From Asticcacaulis sp. AND118 (GTDB lineage: Bacteria; Pseudomonadota; Alphaproteobacteria; Caulobacterales; Caulobacteraceae), in the NCBI RefSeq assembly GCF_020535245.1, contig NZ_CP084910.1, forward strand, positions 720,501-784,500: a stretch of DNA of 64,000 bases, read 5' to 3'. Each line of letters begins with the position of its first letter. Within the stretch, counting starts at the first letter, position 1. Under the pieces are notes generated by a model. The model saw only the letters and a program-made list of their open reading frames with translations. It had not been told where the DNA came from and did not search any database. Made by a program: the position numbers and the translations under genes. Positions 27,257 to 37,487 of the stretch are shown here, in pieces.

Positions 27257-28318
27257 TTACGCGGCGGCCTTGGCGGCGTGGATTTGCGCCACGATGGCCT
27301 TGGTCACTTCCGAACCCGGCAGGTTGCCGCCGACGTCCCTGGTGAGTTGGCCGGCCTTGATCACCGCTTCGATGGCGGCGTCGAGCGCGTCGGCTTCGGT
27401 CGGCAGGTTCAGCGTGAAGCGCAGCATCATCGACACCGACTTCAGCGTGCCGATGGGGTTGGCGAGGTCCTTGCCGGCGATGTCCGGAGCCGAGCCGTGG
27501 ATCGGCTCATAGAGACCCTTACCGGACCCCAGCGAGGCCGAACCCAAGAGGCCGATCGAACCCGGCAGAACCGAGGCGAGGTCGGACAGGATGTCGCCGA
27601 ACATGTTTTCGGTGACAATGACGTCGAACGACTTCGGACGGGTGACGAGGTGCATGGCCATCGAATCGACGAGGGCGTGCTCCAGCTCGACGTCCGAATA
27701 TTCGGCCTTATGCAGCTTGATGACGGTTTCGCGCCACAGACGCGAGGTCTCGATGACATTGGCCTTATCGACTGAGGTCACCTTGTTGCGACGCTTGCGG
27801 GCGGCCTCGAAGGCCACGCGGGCGACGCGCTCGACTTCAGCGACGGTGTAGACGCACTCGTCGGTGGCCGAGGTTTCGGTGCGGGTCTGCTTGCCGAAAT
27901 AGAGGCCGCCGGTCAGTTCGCGCACGATCAGCATGTCGGCGCCCGCGACGATCTCTTCCTTCAGCGGCGAGCGGAAGGCTTGCGACGCCGGCACGTCCAT
28001 CGGACGCAGGTTGGCGAACAGGCCCATCGACTTGCGCACGGCCAGCAGGCCCTGCTCCGGACGCTTGGGTTGCAGGTCCCACTTCGGACCACCGACCGCG
28101 CCCAGCAGCACGGCGTCGGCGGCCAGACAGGCGGCGTCGGTGTCGGCAGGGTAGGGATCGTTGCGTTCGTCGATGGCGATGCCGCCGATCAGCTTTTCTT
28201 CGAAATTGAAGGTGTGGCCGTAGGCTTCGCCGATGGCCTTGAGCGCGGACACGCCTGCGGCGGCGACTTCGGGACCGATGCCGTCACCCGGCAGCACGAC
28301 GATGTTGAAGGTGGACAT
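27257..28318 (-). CDS. leuB: 3-isopropylmalate dehydrogenase
   Basis: A 353-aa NAD-dependent decarboxylating dehydrogenase, third step of leucine synthesis. Conserved segments include LPGDGIGPEV at the N-terminus, the RELTGGLYFGK substrate-binding motif near residue 134, DKANV near 190, and the metal-binding DILSDLASVLPGS near 246 with the NAD-binding GSAPDIAGKDLANP. It is the last gene of the branched-chain amino acid cluster, 32 bases after leuD, ending at the shared terminator. Confidence 0.97.
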   Translation of the reverse strand: MSTFNIVVLPGDGIGPEVAAAGVSALKAIGEAYGHTFNFEEKLIGGIAIDERNDPYPADTDAACLAADAVLLGAVGGPKWDLQPKRPEQGLLAVRKSMGLFANLRPMDVPASQAFRSPLKEEIVAGADMLIVRELTGGLYFGKQTRTETSATDECVYTVAEVERVARVAFEAARKRRNKVTSVDKANVIETSRLWRETVIKLHKAEYSDVELEHALVDSMAMHLVTRPKSFDVIVTENMFGDILSDLASVLPGSIGLLGSASLGSGKGLYEPIHGSAPDIAGKDLANPIGTLKSVSMMLRFTLNLPTEADALDAAIEAVIKAGQLTRDVGGNLPGSEVTKAIVAQIHAAKAAA

Positions 28319-28350
28319 AATAATTTTCCAGTATGTGACGCAGTAAGGGC

Positions 28351-28941
28351 TCAGGCAGCTTTATTGTTGGCTTGCTCGTAGGCTTCGATTTCCGGCAGGC
28401 GCTTGAGCAGCCAGCCCATGGCGTCCACGCCTTCCAGCAGGCACTGGCGCGCGAAGGCTTCGACCTGAAAGGTAACGGCGGTGCCGTCTTCCAGCGTCAG
28501 GGTGCAGGATTCGAGGTCGATGGTGACGCGCTGCTGCGGGTTTTGCGTCAGCTTGTCGTGGATGTCGGGCGACACCACGACCGGCAGCAGACCGTTCTTC
28601 AGGCTGTTCGACTTGAAGATGTCGGCGATCTCGGTCGAGATGACGGCCTTGAAGCCATAGTCCATCAGCGCCCACGGGGCGTGCTCACGCGACGAGCCGC
28701 AGCCGAGATTGTTGCCGGCCACCAGCACGCGGTGCTCGCTCGCGTCGATCTCGTTGAGGATATGCGGCTTGTTCGAGCCGTCGGCATTGTAGCGCCAGTC
28801 GTTGAAGGCGACCTTGCCCAGACCCGCCTTGGTGGTGGTGGTCAGGAAGCGCGCCGGGATGATCTGATCGGTGTCGATATTGGCTTCCGGTAGCACGACG
28901 ATGCGCGAGGAGAAGCTGTGGTTGGGTTCTTGGTTCGACAT
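28351..28941 (-). CDS. leuD: 3-isopropylmalate dehydratase small subunit
   Basis: A 196-aa small subunit with the swivel-domain signatures NIDTDQIIPARFL, NLGCGSSREHAPWAL (substrate-binding loop) and IADIFKSNSLKNGLLP. With LeuC it isomerises 2- to 3-isopropylmalate. The frame stays open upstream through a repeat element, but the ATG at 28941 has a GAAAGAGA ribosome site and matches family length. It is separated from leuC by an inserted palindromic repeat of about 130 bases. Confidence 0.96.
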   Translation of the reverse strand: MSNQEPNHSFSSRIVVLPEANIDTDQIIPARFLTTTTKAGLGKVAFNDWRYNADGSNKPHILNEIDASEHRVLVAGNNLGCGSSREHAPWALMDYGFKAVISTEIADIFKSNSLKNGLLPVVVSPDIHDKLTQNPQQRVTIDLESCTLTLEDGTAVTFQVEAFARQCLLEGVDAMGWLLKRLPEIEAYEQANNKAA

Positions 28942-28960
28942 TTGGGTTCTCTTTCTACCT

Positions 28961-29089
28961 CCTCCCCTGCGAAGCGGGGGAGGTGCCGAGCTTGTCGAGG
29001 CGGAGGGGGCAAAACCATCGGAGGAGGCCCCCTCCACCACGTCGTGGTCCCCCTACCCCGCTACGCCCAAAGGCTTGCAAGGGAGGAGA
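28961..29089. repeat. Palindromic intergenic repeat, family A (copy 1)
   Basis: Starts CCTCCCCTGCGAAGCGGGGGAGGT and carries a GGCGGAGGGGGC core, then CCCCCTCC and a decayed right end (GGGAGGAG). It lies between leuC and leuD. The same units recur at 35121-35246 and 55403-55517. This copy is the most degenerate. Confidence 0.85.
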
Positions 29090-29094
29090 AAAGT

Positions 29095-30510
29095 TTACGC
29101 GCTCTCAAGCTGCATGAATTGACGGGGGTCGGCCACGTGGCCGGCGATGGCGGAAGCGGCGGCCGTAGCGGGCGAGGCCAGCACGGTGCGCGAGCCGGGC
29201 CCCTGACGGCCTTCGAAATTGCGGTTCGAGGTCGAGACGGCCAGTTGGCCCGGCAGCACGAAGTCGCCGTTCATGGCGATACACATCGAGCAGCCCGGCA
29301 GACGCCATTCGGCGCCGGCTTCGAGGAAGACCTCATGCAGGCCTTCCTTCTCGGCTTCGACGCGGACCCATTCGGAGCCCGGCACGATCAGGGCGCGCAC
29401 GCCCGGAGCGACCTTGCGGCCCTTCATGATGGCGGCGGCGGCGCGCAGGTCAGCCATGCGGCCGTTGGTGCACGAACCGATGAAGACCACATCGACCTTC
29501 TCCACCTCGCGGGCCTCGCCGCCGGTGAAGCCCATGTACTTCAGTGCGCGTTCTTCGTCTTCGTTGGCGGCCACCGGCACGCCACGGACGATTGGCGCGC
29601 CTTGGTCGGGCGAGGTGCCCCAGGTGGCCATCGGCTCGATAGCCGAACCGTCGATGGTGATTTCGGTATCGAAGGTCGCACCGGCGTCGGACTTCAGTTC
29701 CAGCCATTGCGCGGCGGCTTCGTCATAGGCCGCGCCTTGCGGCACGTACTGACGGCCACGCAGCCACTCGACCGTCTTCTGATCGGGGGCGATCATGCCG
29801 CAGCGGGCACCGGCTTCGATCGACAGGTTGCAGACCGTCATGCGGCCTTCCATGTCGAGCGCTTCGATGACCGGGCCAGCATATTCCAGCGCGTAGCCGG
29901 TGCCACCTGAGAAGCCGAGCGTATTGATGACGGTCAGCGCCACGTCCTTGCCCGTCACGCCCGGTTGCAGCGCGCCGGTGATGTTGATGCGCATGGTCTT
30001 GGGCTTGCGTTGGGCCAGACACTGGGTGGCCAGAACGTGACCGACTTCCGAGGTGCCGATGCCGAAGGCGATGCAGCCGAACGCGCCGTGGGTCGAGGTG
30101 TGCGAGTCGCCGCAGACGACGGTGAAGCCCGGCTGTGTCAGGCCCATTTCCGGCCCGATGACGTGGACGACGCCGCGGTTTTCGGCGTCGTAGCCGAACA
30201 GGCGCAGACCGTGGTTCGCCGCATTGGCCTCCAGCGTCTCGACCTGCGTCTTGGCCTGAGCCGTGACGTAGGGGCGGTTGCCCTGCGCATCGGGGGCCAG
30301 AGTCGGGATCGAGTGGTCGAGCGTGGCAAAGGTGCGGTCCGGACGGCGGACCTTCAGGCCGCGCGCTTCCAGTTCGGAAAAGGCCTGAGGACTGGTCACC
30401 TCATGAACCAGATGCAGGTCGATATAGAGAACGGCGGGCTTGTCCGCGCCTTCTTCCTCAACGATGTGGCGTTCCCACACCTTCTCGAACAATGATTTGG
30501 GTTTTGACAT
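29095..30510 (-). CDS. leuC: 3-isopropylmalate dehydratase large subunit
   Basis: A 471-aa aconitase-family subunit. [4Fe-4S] ligands are visible in IGSCTNGR near residue 345 and in [11 protein letters not shown] near residue 405; [15 protein letters not shown] near 130 is the other family hallmark. Together with leuD it performs the isomerisation step in leucine synthesis. The ATG at 30510 begins [15 protein letters not shown], matching family starts; longer in-frame extensions are not credible. It follows ilvE across about 115 bases that hold a strong hairpin. Confidence 0.97.
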
Positions 30511-30558
30511 GATGGTCGTCCTGAGTGCCTTCGGATACGCGGCTGTCCGTACAGTCAG

Positions 30559-30600
30559 GCCCCCGCCGCTGCGGTTCGGTTGAACCGTAGCGGCGGGGGC
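30559..30600 (-). terminator. GC-rich hairpin between ilvE and leuC
   Basis: Arms of 19 bases (GCCCCCGCCGCT.CGGTTC / GAACCG.AGCGGCGGGGGC, one mismatch) around a GGTT loop. No T-tract follows on either strand, so it may act as a partial terminator or mRNA-stability hairpin dividing the ilv and leu halves. Confidence 0.6.
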
Positions 30601-30625
30601 GCTGGTGTCGGGCAGGCCTTCTGAT

Positions 30626-31567
30626 TTATGCCGGAACCTTGGCGTCGACATAGTCGAGCCAGCCCCAGCGGTCTTCGGTGGTGCCGTTGAACAGGCCGTG
30701 GAAACGTTCCTGCAACAGCTTGGTGATCGGTCCCGGACCGTTTTCGCGGGTCGGGATGTCGTCGATCGAGCGGATCGGGGTGATTTCAGCCGCCGTGCCC
30801 GTCATGAAGACTTCGTCGGCGAGGTAGAGCATTTCGCGCGGTAAATCCTGTTCGAGGATTTCGATGCCTTCGGCGCGGGCCAGCGTCAGCACGGAGTTGC
30901 GCGTGATGCCGCCCAGAATCGAGGCCGAAACCGGCGGGGTGTAGATCTTGCCGCCCATCATCAGGAACAGGTTTTCACCGGCCCCTTCCGACAGACGTCC
31001 GTCGACGCCGAGGCCCAGACCTTCGACATAGCCCTTCGAGCGCGCTTCGCGGCCGATCAGGTAGGACGACAGGTAGTTGCCGCCAGCCTTGGCCATGACG
31101 GGGATGGTGTTCGGCGCAGCGCGGTTCCACGACGAGACGATGACGTCCACGCCCTTGGTCAGGCCCTCGTCACCGAGGTAAGCGCCCCACGGGAAGGCGG
31201 CGATGGCGACATCGACCTTGACGTTTTCGGGCTTCGGCGTGACACCCATGCCGCATTCGCCGAGGAAGGCGATGGGGCGCAGATAGGCCGACTTCAGGCC
31301 GTTGACGCGCAGGATTTCCTTGCACGCGGCGTTGAGTTGTTGAAGCGTGTAAGGGACCGGCATGTGATAGATGCGGGCCGAATCGAGCAGGCGCTGGGTG
31401 TGCTCGGTCAGGCGGAAGATGGCCGGGCCCCTGGGCGTGTCATAGGCGCGCACACCCTCAAAAACGGACGTGCCGTAGTGGAGCGCGTGGGTCATGACGT
31501 GGACCTTGGTGTCCTCCCACGGCTTCAGTTCACCGTTGAACCAGATTTTTTCAGCGAGCGGTTTCAT
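30626..31567 (-). CDS. ilvE: Branched-chain amino acid aminotransferase
   Basis: A 313-aa fold-type IV PLP enzyme making Leu, Ile and Val from their 2-oxo acids. The PLP lysine lies in [10 protein letters not shown] near residue 159; [17 protein letters not shown] and GTAAEITPI are family signatures. It starts 17 bases inside the 3' end of leuA, so translation is coupled. It belongs to the same minus-strand cluster as all other pathway genes except ilvD. Confidence 0.96.
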
Positions 31568-33134
31568 GTTGTTTCTCAGAATTCAGGTTATTCGAGGCAT
31601 TCTTCCTGTCGTGCAGGAAGACGTATTTTTCAAAAGCGTCGCACATGGCGCGAAGCCCGGCCCATACAGGGTCGGGGCCGCGACCACGGCCCCGATATGC
31701 CTCACCCTTAATCTGTAAACTGATTTCTGCAAAGGCCCCGCCATCGAAGGTGAACCCCGACTGGATGATTTCGCAGTCATTGACACGCGCCTCGATCTGA
31801 TAGGCGTCCACCAAGGCGCGGAACCCGGCCTCGAAAGCGTTGAGCCCCGTGGCCGTGACCTTCAACGGTTCGCCGTTGTCGCGGAACAGGTCGAGCGTGA
31901 TCGAAACGAAGTCTCTGGTGACTTCGCTCGACACCTTGAACAGGCGCGCGTCGTCCTTGTCGGCATTGTCGCGCGTCAGAAGCGACATCAGCTCGAACTC
32001 GTCGATTTCGCCGATCTCGTCCGCGCGGCGCTTGAAGGCGGCGAACAGGTCGCCCAGCGACAACTCGTCGAGGTCGAAGCCCAGCGCCGCCGCCTGCTTG
32101 GCGATGGCGTGGCGGCCCGAATGTTTGCCCAGCACCAGGTTGGACTTTTCCGCGCCGACGTCTTCGGGGCGCATGATCTCATAGGTGCGCGCGTCGGTCA
32201 GCATGCCGTGCTGATGGATGCCGGATTCGTGGGCGAAGGCGTTGCGGCCGACGACGGCCTTGTTGCGCATGACGATGGTGCCGGTGGCGCGCGACAGCAG
32301 GTGGCTGGCCTTGCTCAGCAGCGGCGTGTGGATGCCGGTGTGCAGCTTGAACAGTTCCGGGCGCGTGCGCAGCGCCATGACGACTTCTTCCAGCGCCGCA
32401 TTGCCCGCGCGCTCGCCGATGCCGTTGATGGTCACTTCGATCTGACGCGCACCGGCTTCGAGCGCGGCCAGCGTATTGGCGACGCCGAGGCCGAGATCGT
32501 CGTGATTGTGCGCCGACAGGATGACGTGCGGGTGATCCTTCAGGGCCGCCTTCAGGTCGGAGAAGATCTGGAAGATCTCCTTCGGCGTGGTGTAGCCGAC
32601 CGTGTCGGGGATGTTGAGCGTGCGCGCCCCGGCTTCGGCCGCGGCGATGCAGACCTCGTGCAGGAAGTCCTGTTCGGTGCGGATGGCGTCTTCCGGCGAG
32701 AACTCGACTTCATCAAAAATGGTCGAGGCGTAGCTGACGGCCTTGTGAGCGATCTCGACCACCTGCTCGCGCGTCTTCTTCAGCTTGGCCGCGCGATGGA
32801 TGGGCGAGGTGGCGAGGAAGATGTGGCAGCGCTTGCGCTTGGCCGGCAGGAGCGCACGGGCGGCGGCGTCGATGTCGGACTCCAGCGCACGCGAAAGCGA
32901 GCAGAAGGTCGGACCGACGACTTCGCGGGCGATGGTGCGGATGGCTTCCTCATCGCCGGGCGAAGAGGCGGCGAAACCGGCTTCGATGACGTCCACGCCC
33001 AGATCCTTGAGCGTGTGGGCCAGCATCAGCTTGTCCTTGACGCCCAGCGAAAAGCCGGGGGCCTGTTCACCATCGCGCAAGGTGGTGTCGAAGACGATGA
33101 CGCGGTTGGGGTCGTTGGGGACTACGGCATTCAT
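31551..33134 (-). CDS. leuA: 2-isopropylmalate synthase
   Basis: A 527-aa enzyme condensing acetyl-CoA with 2-oxoisovalerate. The catalytic TIM barrel has [13 protein letters not shown] at residues 14-26 and the metal ligands in [10 protein letters not shown] near 208; the C-terminal allosteric LeuA domain (about 395-500) is present, so leucine feedback inhibition is expected. It lies eight bases downstream of the ilvM-type gene and overlaps ilvE. Confidence 0.97.
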
Positions 33135-33142
33135 GATGGAAC

Positions 33143-33424
33143 TCAGGCGCTCAGTTTTTCGGCGGATGGCTCGGCATTTTGCGCCCGTTCCGGCGCGTGC
33201 TCAAGCCGCTTGATGCCATAGAGGCGATCGATTTGCAGGCCCAGAATATCGATATTGCGGCCCGCATCGCGCGGACGCACGGTGACGCTCAGGCCGCGCG
33301 TGTCGGCCCCCAGGTCGTACATGTCGATTTGGTCGATGTGGAAGCCGCGGCGTTCGATGAGGCCGAGCACACGCAGGAGCGTGCCTTCCAGACGGTCGAT
33401 CTCAATATGAATCGATTGGCTCAT
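33143..33424 (-). CDS. Acetolactate synthase small subunit, short IlvM-type
   Basis: A 93-aa protein with one ACT-like domain ([21 protein letters not shown]) and no second C-terminal domain, unlike the 160-185 aa IlvN/IlvH regulatory subunits. It resembles E. coli IlvM in size. It should activate the catalytic subunit encoded just upstream, with which it overlaps by 23 bases, but valine feedback may differ from IlvN-type enzymes. Symbols ilvM, ilvN and ilvH are used variably, so none is assigned. Confidence 0.88.
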
Positions 33425-35090
33425 CCCAGCGCTCCTCCATCATTTCAGCGTTCGACGCGCCCGGCGGCACCAGCGGCCAGACGTTTTCGCGCGGGTCGAT
33501 CAACACATGCAACAGGGTCGGGGCGTCGGCGGCCAACAGCCGGTCGATGGCGCCCTCGACCTCATGACGCTGGGTGATGCGGAATGCGCTCAGCCCGAAC
33601 GCCTTGGCGACTTCGACGAAGTCCGGATTATCGGACAGGTCGATTTCGCTGTAGTTTTCTTCGTAGAACAGTTCCTGCCACTGACGCACCAGCCCCAGCG
33701 AGGAATTGTCGAGCAGGACGATTTTCAGATTGATGCCGTAGCGCCGCAGCGTCGCCATCTCCTGAATATTCATCATGAAGCTGCCGTCGCCGGACACCGT
33801 GACGACGTGGTGGTCGGGCAGGCCGAGCTTGGCCCCCATACCGGCAGGCAGGCCGTAGCCCATCGCGCCGGAGCCGCCTGAGGTCAGGTGCGCCAGATTC
33901 TGCTCGAATTCGCAGTGCTGGGCGACCCACATCTGATGCTGGCCGACGTCACAGGCGACGATGAACTTCTTGCCCGCCTTTTCCGACAGCGACTTGAGCA
34001 GGCCCGGCGCATAGACGCCCTTGCCCGGCGCATCGTACTTGAAGCGGTGCTGCCACTTGTTCGTCTTGTTGAACTTCACCCATTCCGAGATGTCGGGCAT
34101 CTTCGGCTGAAGCGCGGGCAGGGCCTGCTTCAGGTCGCCCAGAATGGCGACGTCGGCGCGGCGGTTCTTGTGGAATTCGGCCGGGTCGATGTCGAAATGG
34201 ATGACCTTGGCGTGGGGCGCGAAGGCCGACAGCTTGCCCGTGGCGCGGTCGTCGAAACGCGCGCCGACGGCGATCAGCAGGTCGGTTGCCTGCACGGCCA
34301 TATTGCCGGCACGGGTGCCGTGCATACCCAGCATCCCCAGATGCAGGTCGTGATAGGTCGAGACCGTGCCGAGGCCTTTCAGCGTCGAGACGAAGGGGAT
34401 GCCGGTGCGTTCGACAAAGTCGCGCATCTCGGCATCGGCATCGGCCATGTGCACGCCGCCGCCGATATAGAGGAGGGGCTTTTGGGCCTGTTCGATCAGA
34501 GCCCTGGCAGCGTCGATGCTTTCGGCCTTGGGCGCAGGCGGCGTCCAGGCGGGCAGTTCGCCCATTTCGGAGGCTTCGACAAAGCTGGCGGCGACGTCCT
34601 TCGGAATATCGACGAGGACCGGGCCCGGACGGCCTTCCTTGGCGATGGCGAAGGCGCGGGCGAGGATAGCCGGGATTTGCGCGGCGTCGCGCACCAGCCA
34701 CGAATGTTTGACGACCGGCAGGGTCAGGCCTAGAAAGTCCACTTCCTGAAAGCCGTCGGTGCCCATCAGGTGCGTCGCGACCTGACCGGTGATGAAGACA
34801 ACCGGGACCGAGTCCATATAGGCATTGGCGATGCCGGTGATGAGATTGGTCGCGCCGGGCCCGGAGGTGGCCATGCACACGCCGACGCGGCCGGTGGCGC
34901 GGGCGTAGGAATCGGCGGCGAAGGACGCGCCTTGCTCGTGGCGCACCAGAATGTGACGCAGGCCGGACCCGGCCAAGGCGTCGTAGATCGGCATGATGGC
35001 GCCGCCCGGATAACCGAACAGCACGTCTACGCCCAGCGCTTTCAGCGTTGAGATGACGAGTTGCGCGCCGGTCGGTTTATTGGTGGGCAT
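33402..35090 (-). CDS. ilvB: Acetolactate synthase large (catalytic) subunit
   Basis: A 562-aa ThDP- and FAD-dependent enzyme making acetolactate and acetohydroxybutyrate. The catalytic Glu is in VRHEQGAS near residue 48, the FAD region includes [12 protein letters not shown], and the ThDP/Mg motif [12 protein letters not shown] is near residue 425. The ATG at 35090 (MPTNKPTG) is taken; a frame open further upstream runs into a repeat. The symbol could equally be ilvG or ilvI. It precedes the ilvM-type subunit and follows ilvC after a palindromic repeat. Confidence 0.95.
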
Positions 35091-35120
35091 GAGTCTACTC
35101 GGTGTGATGGTTTTTATCAT

Positions 35121-35246
35121 CCTCCCCTGCTTGCGGGGGAGGTGGCGGCGAAGCCGACGGAGGGGGCATTTCATATGAGGGATGCCCCCTCCGTCATTTT
35201 CGCTTTAGCTCAATGACACCTCCCCCGCTTTCGCAGGGGAGGAGGG
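35121..35246. repeat. Palindromic intergenic repeat, family A (copy 2)
   Basis: Outer arms CCTCCCCTGCTTGCGGGGGAGGTGG and CACCTCCCCCGCTTTCGCAGGGGAGG are inverted, and an inner pair GACGGAGGGGGCAT/ATGCCCCCTCCGTC folds as well. It occupies the whole gap between ilvC and ilvB within the operon. Confidence 0.9.
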
Positions 35247-35253
35247 GCATGGC

Positions 35254-36255
35254 TTAACCGTTACCTTTTTGGTTCAGCCACGACATGCGCGAACGCAGGT
35301 CACGACCGACGCTTTCGATCGGATGCTCGAGGTCCTGACGCATCAGGGCCGAATAACGCGGACGGCCGGCCATGTTTTCGAGGATCCAGTCGCGCGCGAA
35401 GTCACCCGATTGAATGTCGTTGAGCACTTCTTCCATGCGCTCGCGGGTTTCTTCGTTGATGATGCGCGGGCCCGAAACCAGATCGCCGTACTTGCAGGTT
35501 TCCGACACGAACGAGTGCATCTTTTCGAGGCCGCCTTCGTACAGCAGGTCGACGATGAGCTTGAGTTCGTGCAGCACTTCGAAATAGGCGATTTCCGGGC
35601 GGTAGCCGGCGTTGGTCAGGGTTTCAAAGCCCATCAGGATCAGTTCCGAGGTCCCGCCGCACAGAACGGCCTGTTCGCCGAACAGGTCGGTTTCGGTTTC
35701 CTCGCGGAACGAGGTCTCGATCACGCCGCCGACGGTGCCACCGATGCCGCGGGCATAGCCCAGAGCCTTGCGGGCGGCTTCACCGGTGACGTCGCGGTCC
35801 ACGGCGAACAGCGACGGCACGCCGCGGCCGCGCTGATATTCGCGACGGACGAGGTCGCCCGGACCCTTGGGCGCGACGAGGATGACGTCGAGGTCGGCGC
35901 GGGCGGTGACGCGGCCGTAGAGGACCGAGAAGCCGTGGGCGAAGAGCAGCGCCGCACCCTTGGGGGCGTAGGGCTCGATCTCGTCCTTATAGATGTCGGC
36001 GTGCGACATGTCGGGCGTCAGGAGCGCGATGATGGTGGCGTCCTTCACGGCGTCCTTGATTTCGGCGGTGGCGAGGCCGTCAGCCGTGGCCTTGGTGTGG
36101 CCGGCGCCGCCGGCGCGCACGCCGACGATCACGTCCGCGCCCGATTCCTTCAGGTTCTGGGCGTGGGCGCGGCCTTGCGAGCCGTAGCCGATAATGGCGA
36201 TGCGTTCGCCCTTCAGGCTGTCCGGCGAAACGTCGTCGTTGGTGTAGATTTTCAC
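35254..36255 (-). CDS. ilvC: Ketol-acid reductoisomerase (class I)
   Basis: A 333-aa short-form (class I) enzyme converting acetolactate to dihydroxyisovalerate with NADPH and Mg2+. The Rossmann motif [13 protein letters not shown] lies at residues 24-36; the metal-ligand helices have the conserved [12 protein letters not shown] near 190 and [13 protein letters not shown]. It follows the IlvD-C-like gene by 63 bases on the same strand. A family A repeat separates it from ilvB. Confidence 0.97.
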
Positions 36256-36318
36256 TTGGGAGGCTCCATTGAGTGCCGGCTTTGCCGGTCGCTTTGAAAG
36301 GAAAAGGGAAAAAGGTGA

Positions 36319-36855
36319 TCAGGCCTGAGCGGCAGCCGCTTCTGCCATCAGGGCGGCGTACTTGCCCATGGGCGCGAAGCCGTTCTTGACCTTCGAACCG
36401 CGCGGACCCTCCGCACGGCGCGCGACCATGTCGGCGTCGATGTCGAGACGGCGGTTCTTGATGTCGATGGTGATGGTGTCGAAATTCTGGACATAACGGA
36501 TGGCCTTGCCGACGTGACCGATCACGATACCATCTGACGATGCGGCGAAACGGCCATTCGAGATCAGGCTGATGTCGCGCAGGCCCGCCGCTTCGATCGC
36601 GCCGTAGATGGCCGACATTTCCGCTTCGTCCGCCGCCGCGATGACGATGGCCTCACCGTGGGCGACGCGGTCTTCCGCGATGGCGGCGATGGCGTCGGAT
36701 TCCATGGCGAAGACGCGGGCGCGGGCTTCGTGCGGGTCGCGCTCGAAACCGCCGCCGGTCATCACGCAGCCTTCCGGCGACAGCGACCCGTGCAGGATCA
36801 CGAAGTTCGAAGCGGGGAGGGAAGCCGGGTCGATGATGCGGGCGTGAGCGTTCAT
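36319..36855 (-). CDS. Stand-alone IlvD/Edd C-terminal-domain-like protein
   Basis: A 178-aa protein that aligns by eye with the C-terminal domain of dihydroxy-acid dehydratase. LHGSLSPEGCVM matches [12 protein letters not shown] of the real IlvD at 37488-39353, ARVFAMESDAIAAI matches [29 protein letters not shown] matches [15 protein letters not shown], and FDTITIDIKNRRLDI matches [15 protein letters not shown]. The catalytic-serine motif GRFSG is GRFAA, and the Fe-S cysteine ligands of IlvD are on the missing N-terminal part, so it cannot be a dehydratase. The frame is intact with normal codon use, so it looks functional. As first gene after the attenuator it may be a regulatory or scaffold subunit. 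Confidence 0.85.
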   Translation of the reverse strand: MNAHARIIDPASLPASNFVILHGSLSPEGCVMTGGGFERDPHEARARVFAMESDAIAAIAEDRVAHGEAIVIAAADEAEMSAIYGAIEAAGLRDISLISNGRFAASSDGIVIGHVGKAIRYVQNFDTITIDIKNRRLDIDADMVARRAEGPRGSKVKNGFAPMGKYAALMAEAAAAQA

Positions 36856-36924: not shown

Positions 36925-36953
36925 AAAAAAGCCCGCTCTGGTCAGGGAGCGGG
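36925..36953 (-). terminator. Attenuator terminator upstream of the ilv/leu cluster
   Basis: On the minus strand a 7-base-pair stem CCCGCTC/GAGCGGG (36953-36947 with 36938-36932), an 8-base loop, then C and T6 (36930-36925). It lies 38 bases after the leader-peptide stop and 69 bases before the first structural gene. Confidence 0.85.
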
Positions 36954-37001
36954 AGGACGTTTGTTCCTCATTAGGCGGGTTTAGACCTGCGCTACCACTC
37001 C
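36946..37001 (-). promoter_or_regulatory. Proposed antiterminator pairing of the ilv attenuator
   Basis: On the minus strand, GGAGTGG (37001-36995), which includes the Trp codon before the leader stop, can pair over 7 bp (one G-U) with CCGCTCC (36952-36946), the 5' arm of the terminator. A ribosome stalled at the Val/Leu/Ile codons would leave GGAGTGG free; a ribosome reaching the stop would cover it and let the terminator form. Confidence 0.65.
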
Positions 37002-37186
37002 GTGATCATAGGACGTACAAGTACGCCTACGATGAGTAGGTTAATCAGGGCTACAATGGCGACGGACGCGGCAGCGGAAAGGTTCAGGGCGATCCCCGAA
37101 ACATCTTTCTGAGCAGCGATGGCGATAGCCTTGCGCACGTGTGCGTCTCCGTCTGGCGTGGCCACATTGACCGCGTCTGAGAGCAT
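36992..37186 (-). CDS. Probable branched-chain amino acid leader peptide (attenuation)
   Basis: A 64-codon ORF from the ATG at 37186; an in-frame TTG at 37219 gives 75. The last 25 codons encode VAIVALINLLIVGVLV before RPMITEW, with 12 Val/Leu/Ile in 16 codons. Several are written with codons rare in this GC-rich sequence: GTA four times, plus CTA, CTT and ATT. It ends just before a terminator, and its final codons form an alternative pairing with that terminator. This is the layout of ilv-type leader peptides. The hydrophobic stretch could instead be a transmembrane helix of a small membrane protein, the main alternative. The start codon is uncertain. Confidence 0.65.
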   Translation of the reverse strand: MLSDAVNVATPDGDAHVRKAIAIAAQKDVSGIALNLSAAASVAIVALINLLIVGVLVRPMITEW

Positions 37187-37487
37187 ATAGACTGAAAACC
37201 TTGCCGATTGCAAAGGCAAAATTGAAAAAAAATTTCTTGAGGCGGCGAATGCGCTGGTTAATCAGGTAAAAATTTATCTCATATTGCCATTAGTGGAAAT
37301 TATATTTCTGGTATGCGGGGTTGTCGAAAAAATTACCCCATAACCGCCGGGCTTTGCGCAAGACTTTCGCAGGAGCAAAAAAATGACTCCGGCGCCTTGT
37401 GGGCAAATGGCCGCCGCCGGCTCTGTTGCAATTCGCCGCGTTCGTTTTATATGGCCTACTATATATAAAGTAGTCACCGAGGTTCCC
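37187..37487. promoter_or_regulatory. Divergent promoter region between ilv leader and ilvD
   Basis: About 300 bases, AT-rich between 37220 and 37340, separating the minus-strand leader from plus-strand ilvD. It should hold both promoters. In Caulobacter a LysR-type regulator is known for ilvD, but no such gene is seen here. A GAGG ribosome site precedes ilvD. No operator was identified with confidence. Confidence 0.5.

Follow-up and report, generated by a model that had tools for sequence, protein, structure and literature searches.

The window analysed here, a stretch of 64,000 nucleotides from Asticcacaulis sp. AND118, carries on its minus strand a short open reading frame (ORF), an intrinsic terminator and a cluster of nine genes (Table 1). 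The initial annotation, made from the sequence itself, had placed this cluster at 27257-36855 behind the terminator, where it is indeed present. It had also stated that the first ilv gene follows; a gene does follow, but rather than a classical ilv gene it is a stand-alone ILV_EDD_C domain. Among the genes after it, the ilvM-like gene has a presumptive label, given from similarity and position.

The terminator stem begins 38 nt after the stop codon of the ORF (TAG 36994-36992), the distance given by the initial annotation, and a consensus scan placed it at the same coordinates. The 7-bp pairing that had been described between GGAGTGG at the end of the ORF and CCGCTCC in the terminator, with one G-U, was likewise confirmed. 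Across 25 Asticcacaulis genomes, 68 to 74 nt separate the leader stop from the end of the T-run, and in 24 of them a terminator with a run of five or more T stands between the ORF and the first gene. Eight terminator-like sites (stem of 6 or more, followed by 5 or more T) were found in the window. Only the one at 36925-36953 follows a short ORF (12-80 codons, at least 40% Val, Ile or Leu in the last 25 codons) that bears a Shine-Dalgarno sequence.

Upstream, the likely leader promoter agrees with TTGCAA-18-TATATG at 10 or more of the 12 positions in 19 of the 25 genomes and diverges in the other six, the consensus having been drawn from the same 25-genome set that was scored. Another candidate promoter, TCGACA-17-TATAAT at 37327-37299, was set aside, as no comparable site is found at a common place in relatives.

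Table 1 Features of the leader region and of the genes behind it, in window positions and in the direction of transcription
Feature	Positions	Strand	Description and basis
Likely leader promoter	37184..37213	-	TTGCAA 37213-37208, 18 nt, TATATG 37189-37184; aligned in 25 genomes
Shine-Dalgarno sequence of leader ORF	37147..37150	-	GGAG, 6-13 nt 5' of the aligned start in 25/25
Leader peptide ORF	36992..37138	-	Likely GTG start and 48 codons before the stop, VRKAIAIAAQKDVSGIALNLSAAASVAIVALINLLIVGVLVRPMITEW; 44-50 codons in 25/25
Control region	37016..37063	-	Val/Leu/Ile codons -23 to -8 before the stop; GTA-rich, with CTA, CTT, ATT
Hairpin P1	37009..37029	-	Within the last part of the coding region; putative role as a pause hairpin for RNA polymerase
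Antiterminator 5' arm	36995..37001	-	GGAGTGG, last two codons (Glu-Trp); invariant in 25/25
Helper hairpin P2	36972..36994	-	Directly 3' of the antiterminator 5' arm; fold of the window segment
Helper hairpin PH	36953..36969	-	GAGGA/TCCTC; predicted in 20/25
Antiterminator 3' arm	36946..36952	-	CCGCTCC, common to the terminator 5' arm; invariant in 25/25
Intrinsic terminator	36925..36953	-	CCCGCTC 36953-36947, N8, GAGCGGG 36938-36932, T6 36930-36925; consensus scan; T-run of at least 5 in 24/25 (not G149)
First cluster gene	36319..36855	-	Stand-alone C-terminal domain, IlvD/Edd dehydratase family; PF24877, E 4.8e-21
Presumably controlled genes	27257..36255	-	ilvC, ilvG-type acetolactate synthase, ilvM-like, leuA, ilvE, leuC, leuD, leuB; Pfam (ilvM-like by similarity and position) and ORFs

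Leader ORF and control codons

The ORF and its stop codon stand as first annotated, but the length of 64 codons does not. In all 25 genus genomes an aligned start codon (ATG, GTG or TTG) is preceded by GGAG; where two start codons were candidates (e.g. genomes G085 and G133) the alignment settled the choice. By this comparison the leader of the window likely starts at GTG 37138 and has 48 codons. The ATG at 37186, from which 64 codons would be read, was dropped because it forms the end of the conserved TATATG -10 box and because some relatives have no open frame 5' of the aligned start. A Pfam search with the 64-aa version returned no family.

The peptide is hydrophobic, and a KAIAIA...LA.SF pattern recurs among the leaders. 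In its N-terminal half, codons with a single difference comprise 34 synonymous and 19 nonsynonymous changes, and the latter are fewer than expected under neutrality (P between 1.5e-8 and 4.1e-7) based on 11 genome pairs, chosen greedily by highest identity and mostly of close relatives. Together with the GGAG and the start codon aligned across all 25 genomes, this depletion indicates, at the level of sequence, a short translated ORF. The substitution pattern suggests that the leader is translated and that selection acts on the peptide outside its control codons as well.

Such selection makes a second function of the peptide a testable question. The 44-50-aa leader could have a functional N-terminal half and act in trans in addition to serving the attenuator, e.g. 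as a small protein inserted in the membrane and reporting branched-chain amino acid status, and there is a precedent in peTrpL of Sinorhizobium meliloti, a leader peptide reported to act in trans as well (PMC7298713). If so, one short gene would be both attenuator and regulator. We regard this as unlikely: the amino-acid selection and the recurrent pattern speak for it, but the selection may reflect only efficient translation, RNA structure at the start region or nascent-chain effects, and the 11 pairs behind it are mostly closely related.

The C-terminal half of the ORF is where an attenuator would sense amino acid supply. It contains VAIVALINLLIVGVLV, encoded with four GTA, one CTA, one CTT and two ATT codons, exactly the codons that the initial annotation had noted in the last part of the ORF. 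Val, Leu or Ile codons are found at -8, -9, -13 and -17 relative to the stop in 24 of 25 leaders and at -14 in all 25. At -7 there is one in a single leader and at -6 in none; at -4, within the part covered by the ribosome, 20 of 25 leaders have one. Overall, these three amino acids make up 38% of leader residues versus 21% in twelve window genes, consistent with control codons.

The rarity of GTA that had been claimed for this GC-rich sequence is borne out by the twelve window genes, in which it accounts for 9 of 304 Val codons. In the window leader it accounts for 4 of the 6 Val codons after the start (binomial P = 1.1e-5). Across the genus the GTA share of Val codons is 81/116 in the control half and 0/36 in the N-terminal half, pooled counts that take related genomes as separate. 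With this confinement to the control half, the selective-charging theory of leader codon choice (PMC1183508) gains an example from outside E. coli.

Predicted folding of the leader RNA

When the isolated segment is folded freely, its minimum-energy structure contains the GGAGTGG/CCGCTCC helix in 25 of 25 genomes. The helix encloses two hairpins in 20 of them and a different inner fold in five; PH is not predicted in G089, G075, G068, G153 and G060, among the 25 genus genomes. P2 differs in the five-genome G089 clade and has one pair with two-sided changes. In P1, 84.5% of cells are paired, and its two outer pairs are unpaired in many genomes.

We then placed a ribosome on the leader as a mask extending 12 nt past the A-site codon. 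When the RNA was folded before the terminator 3' arm emerges (early folding), the antiterminator pairing exceeded 0.5 in 25 of 25 genomes at each tallied ribosome position between -15 and -7. At -6 it did so in 23 genomes, and with the ribosome at -5 or any later position up to the stop it did so in none. In the full leader, the terminator probability exceeded 0.5 in all 25 genomes with the ribosome at -6 to -2 and in 23 with it at -1 or at the stop. The initial annotation had proposed folding for mutually exclusive structures as a check, and the mask does move the leader from antiterminator to terminator between -7 and -5. The conserved Val, Leu and Ile codons end at -8, immediately 5' of this switch point. 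Footprints of 9-16 nt displace the boundary by a codon or two. For the window sequence with the ribosome at -10, the occlusion of CCGCUCC was 0.996, a value matched by none of 300 mononucleotide shuffles. In these computations the antiterminator is an alternative to the terminator, since it takes up the common terminator 5' arm and is blocked by a ribosome at the stop codon.

Equilibrium folding of the full leader is less clean than early folding in the model. The terminator probability exceeded 0.5 with the ribosome at -20 in 18 of the 25 genomes, at -15 in 7, at -12 in 4, at -8 in 10 and at -7 in 15. The model therefore needs an antiterminator that forms first and persists. With no ribosome on the RNA, early antiterminator pairing exceeded 0.5 in 12 of 25 genomes (0.10 in the window), so that default termination without translation may not be general.

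Covariation, another check that had been proposed, was evaluated on an alignment of the genus genomes fitted to the terminator-form structure, and it was weak. The counts of 2 pairs with two-sided change and 10 further pair types did not exceed those in shuffles (426 and 497 of 500 were as high). In contrast, the 13 cells with two-sided change were above all shuffles (5.0 in shuffles). The main stems are hardly tested by covariation because they do not vary.

We consider it very probable that a ribosome-mediated transcription attenuator precedes the ilv-leu genes, as the initial annotation had proposed, its anatomy and folding being drawn from computation: the leader ORF and its control codons, the terminator, the antiterminator arms, the spacing and the place before the first cluster gene are conserved throughout the 25 genomes, and the predicted folding switches where attenuation requires it. 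Transcription would begin shortly after the -10 box, and the ribosome would load at GGAG and initiate at GTG 37138, a start supported by conservation. When charged tRNAs for Val, Leu and Ile are ample, the ribosome would reach the stop codon and cover GGAGUGG, upon which the CCCGCUC/GAGCGGG terminator would form and transcription would stop near 36925. With any of these tRNAs in short supply, the ribosome would stall at codon -8 or further 5' and leave GGAGUGG free to pair with the emerging CCGCUCC, in a stem around two hairpins (or the other inner fold in five genomes). This antiterminator would remove the terminator 5' arm, and the polymerase would read on into the ilv-leu genes as a response to starvation.

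Distribution and comparison with known attenuators

The leader ORF lies before the first gene of the cluster in 25 of 25 Asticcacaulis genomes. A search with the 64-aa leader (E 0.001) matched 17 of 249 genomes of the family, once each, all of them Asticcacaulis and all beside the first cluster gene; the leaders of the remaining 8 genus genomes were located by position and alignment. The search gave no match in the other 224 family genomes. The initial annotation had named conservation of the peptide apart from the ilv context as grounds against attenuation, and among the 17 matches no such case was seen.

These distributions bear on whether the ORF instead encodes a small single-span membrane protein and has an ordinary terminator behind it, with Val, Ile and Leu residues forming a membrane helix and the ilv genes being read from another promoter. 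The hydrophobic peptide and the purifying selection outside the control codons would fit such a gene. Nevertheless we judge it very unlikely, given the position before the first cluster gene and the distance from stop to terminator, both conserved across the 25 genomes, the restriction of a rare codon to the control half, the match of the invariant GGAGTGG to a terminator arm, and the absence of a leader match from the 224 other family genomes searched.

Searches at the RNA level are in keeping with an attenuator confined to the genus. An exact-pattern scan of 84,980 species yielded 22 stretches, 17 of them from Asticcacaulis; the other five showed no ilv, leu or leader match. All 25 genus genomes are recovered by the RNA model R1, which was built from 14 of them. 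Outside the genus, strict filters leave 4 of the 224 family genomes with a match at E 0.05 (best 9.8e-4), and neither of the two best (L078 and L079) has an ilv, leu or leader match nearby. A second, weak R1 match occurs in some genus genomes. The best of these is in G141 (E 2.9e-6, L082), where inspection of the ORF list revealed nothing recognised as ilv or leu. By these sequence searches the attenuator is found only in Asticcacaulis among the 249 family genomes.

A structured leader and terminator before a biosynthetic operon could also belong to a riboswitch or a T-box, to which we give almost no credence. In Rfam, segment 36300-37700 of the window has nothing at the gathering score and one chance-level match (sX5, E 2.7), and the loci of 12 of 24 relatives have no match up to E 0.1. 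The Shine-Dalgarno sequence, control codons and codon-position bias form a coding signature that argues for a translated attenuator instead.

The proposed mechanism is that of the trp, his and ilvL attenuators and of the ilvBN leader in the same family. In Caulobacter crescentus, a translated leader with Ile and Val codons and a rho-independent terminator precede the acetolactate synthase genes ilvBN (PMC4117421, citing Tarleton, Malakooti and Ely 1994). As far as this source describes it, the arrangement resembles that of Asticcacaulis in its leader of branched-chain amino acid codons and its terminator before synthase genes, and it bears out the claim of leader attenuation in Caulobacter ilv genes. 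We examined 22 sister-genus loci (L117-L138), drawn from 44 sister-genus genomes with a match, and found candidate leaders of 9-17 codons with about 3-6 Val, Ile or Leu codons in 17 of them. With 44-50 codons, the Asticcacaulis leaders are indeed longer than classical ones, as had been claimed. Given the short sister-genus leaders and the lack of an Rfam match, we conclude that the Asticcacaulis form is a new, longer and genus-specific one of a known mechanism. To a family in which the other members examined have much shorter leaders, it adds a strongly conserved attenuator (25/25, no Rfam match) that precedes an operon of apparently out-of-class origin. A literature search, thin for subscription journals and with Asticcacaulis named in few queries, returned no paper on this leader.

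The short candidate ilvB leaders, present in 17 of the 22 loci L117-L138, often have GTGCGC at the start and ATCGTACTT. The start GGAG-N8-GTGCGC is common to Asticcacaulis and several sister-genus leaders, and GTACTT is also shared. These resemblances may reflect descent or convergent use of rare codons, and GGAG-N8-GTGCGC is suggestive only. Homology with the other Caulobacteraceae leaders was set aside as unsupported by R1: the ilvBN leaders share no common model with Asticcacaulis, and R1 has no supported copy outside the genus.

Outside the class, the gammaproteobacterial-type ilvL (ilvG/ilvM) and ilvC-ilvG leaders belong to the same operon type, with a leader rich in Val, Leu and Ile followed by a terminator. 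Their leader ORFs have 28-42 codons (7 of 11 loci), their Val control codons are by eye mostly GTG or GTC with some GTA, and the fetched stretches of the 11 loci contain no stand-alone IlvD C-terminal gene; as to descent, the two kinds of leader were compared by eye only. Comparable designs are described for the ilv-leu operons of two other bacteria, in sources whose descriptions are the basis of the likeness. The leaders of Staphylococcus aureus (26 aa, PMC5794164) and of Rli60 in Listeria monocytogenes (13 aa, PMC5864092) are rich in branched-chain amino acids and shorter than the 44-50 aa of Asticcacaulis; both are followed by alternative terminator and antiterminator structures, and CodY also regulates both.

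First cluster gene and origin of the operon

The first cluster gene, present in 25 of 25 genus genomes, has the ILV_EDD_C domain without the N-terminal domain, and its matches in G149 and G141 are flagged with one stop each. It reads GRFAAS where IlvD has GRFSGG, a motif whose serine we take to bear on dehydratase activity. Because of this replacement, the product is probably not an active dehydratase. Among the matches listed, frames of about 200 aa are those of genus members, and frames elsewhere have about 550 aa or more with three exceptions (207, 274 and 318 aa). The best match outside the genus among those listed is full-length and adjoins ilvC (G399).

With its counterparts in sister genera, the acetolactate synthase shares 43-48% identity. 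Of 398 phylum genomes, 53 reach E 1e-170, all of them outside the class, and to their synthases it is 51-62% identical. For IlvC, identity is 51-54% to six sister-genus genomes; of the genomes outside the class, three have matches of 58-62% and two others of 34-35% only. Since both proteins are closer to those of out-of-class genomes than to those of sister genera, the ilv-leu operon looks horizontally acquired from outside the class, a reading based on identities and gene order. In two of 11 out-of-class loci (L111 and L112), ilvC, ilvG and leuA come after a divergent ilvD, the same as in Asticcacaulis. We infer that these 11 loci are from Gammaproteobacteria, based on their leaders, which we take to be of the enteric type, and on an Rfam scan of nine of them, in which one locus had a match whose name refers to soft rot Enterobacteriaceae. 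Within Asticcacaulis, the fetched stretch of L116 (G014) has no leuA match between ilvE and ilvM, so that operon gene content seems to vary in the genus.

Between the leader and the divergent ilvD, 5' of the -35 box on the minus strand, there is an AT-rich near-palindrome of the GGAAAATTTTTCC type (37224-37236), seen by eye in many relatives. It is a possible regulator site or UP element.
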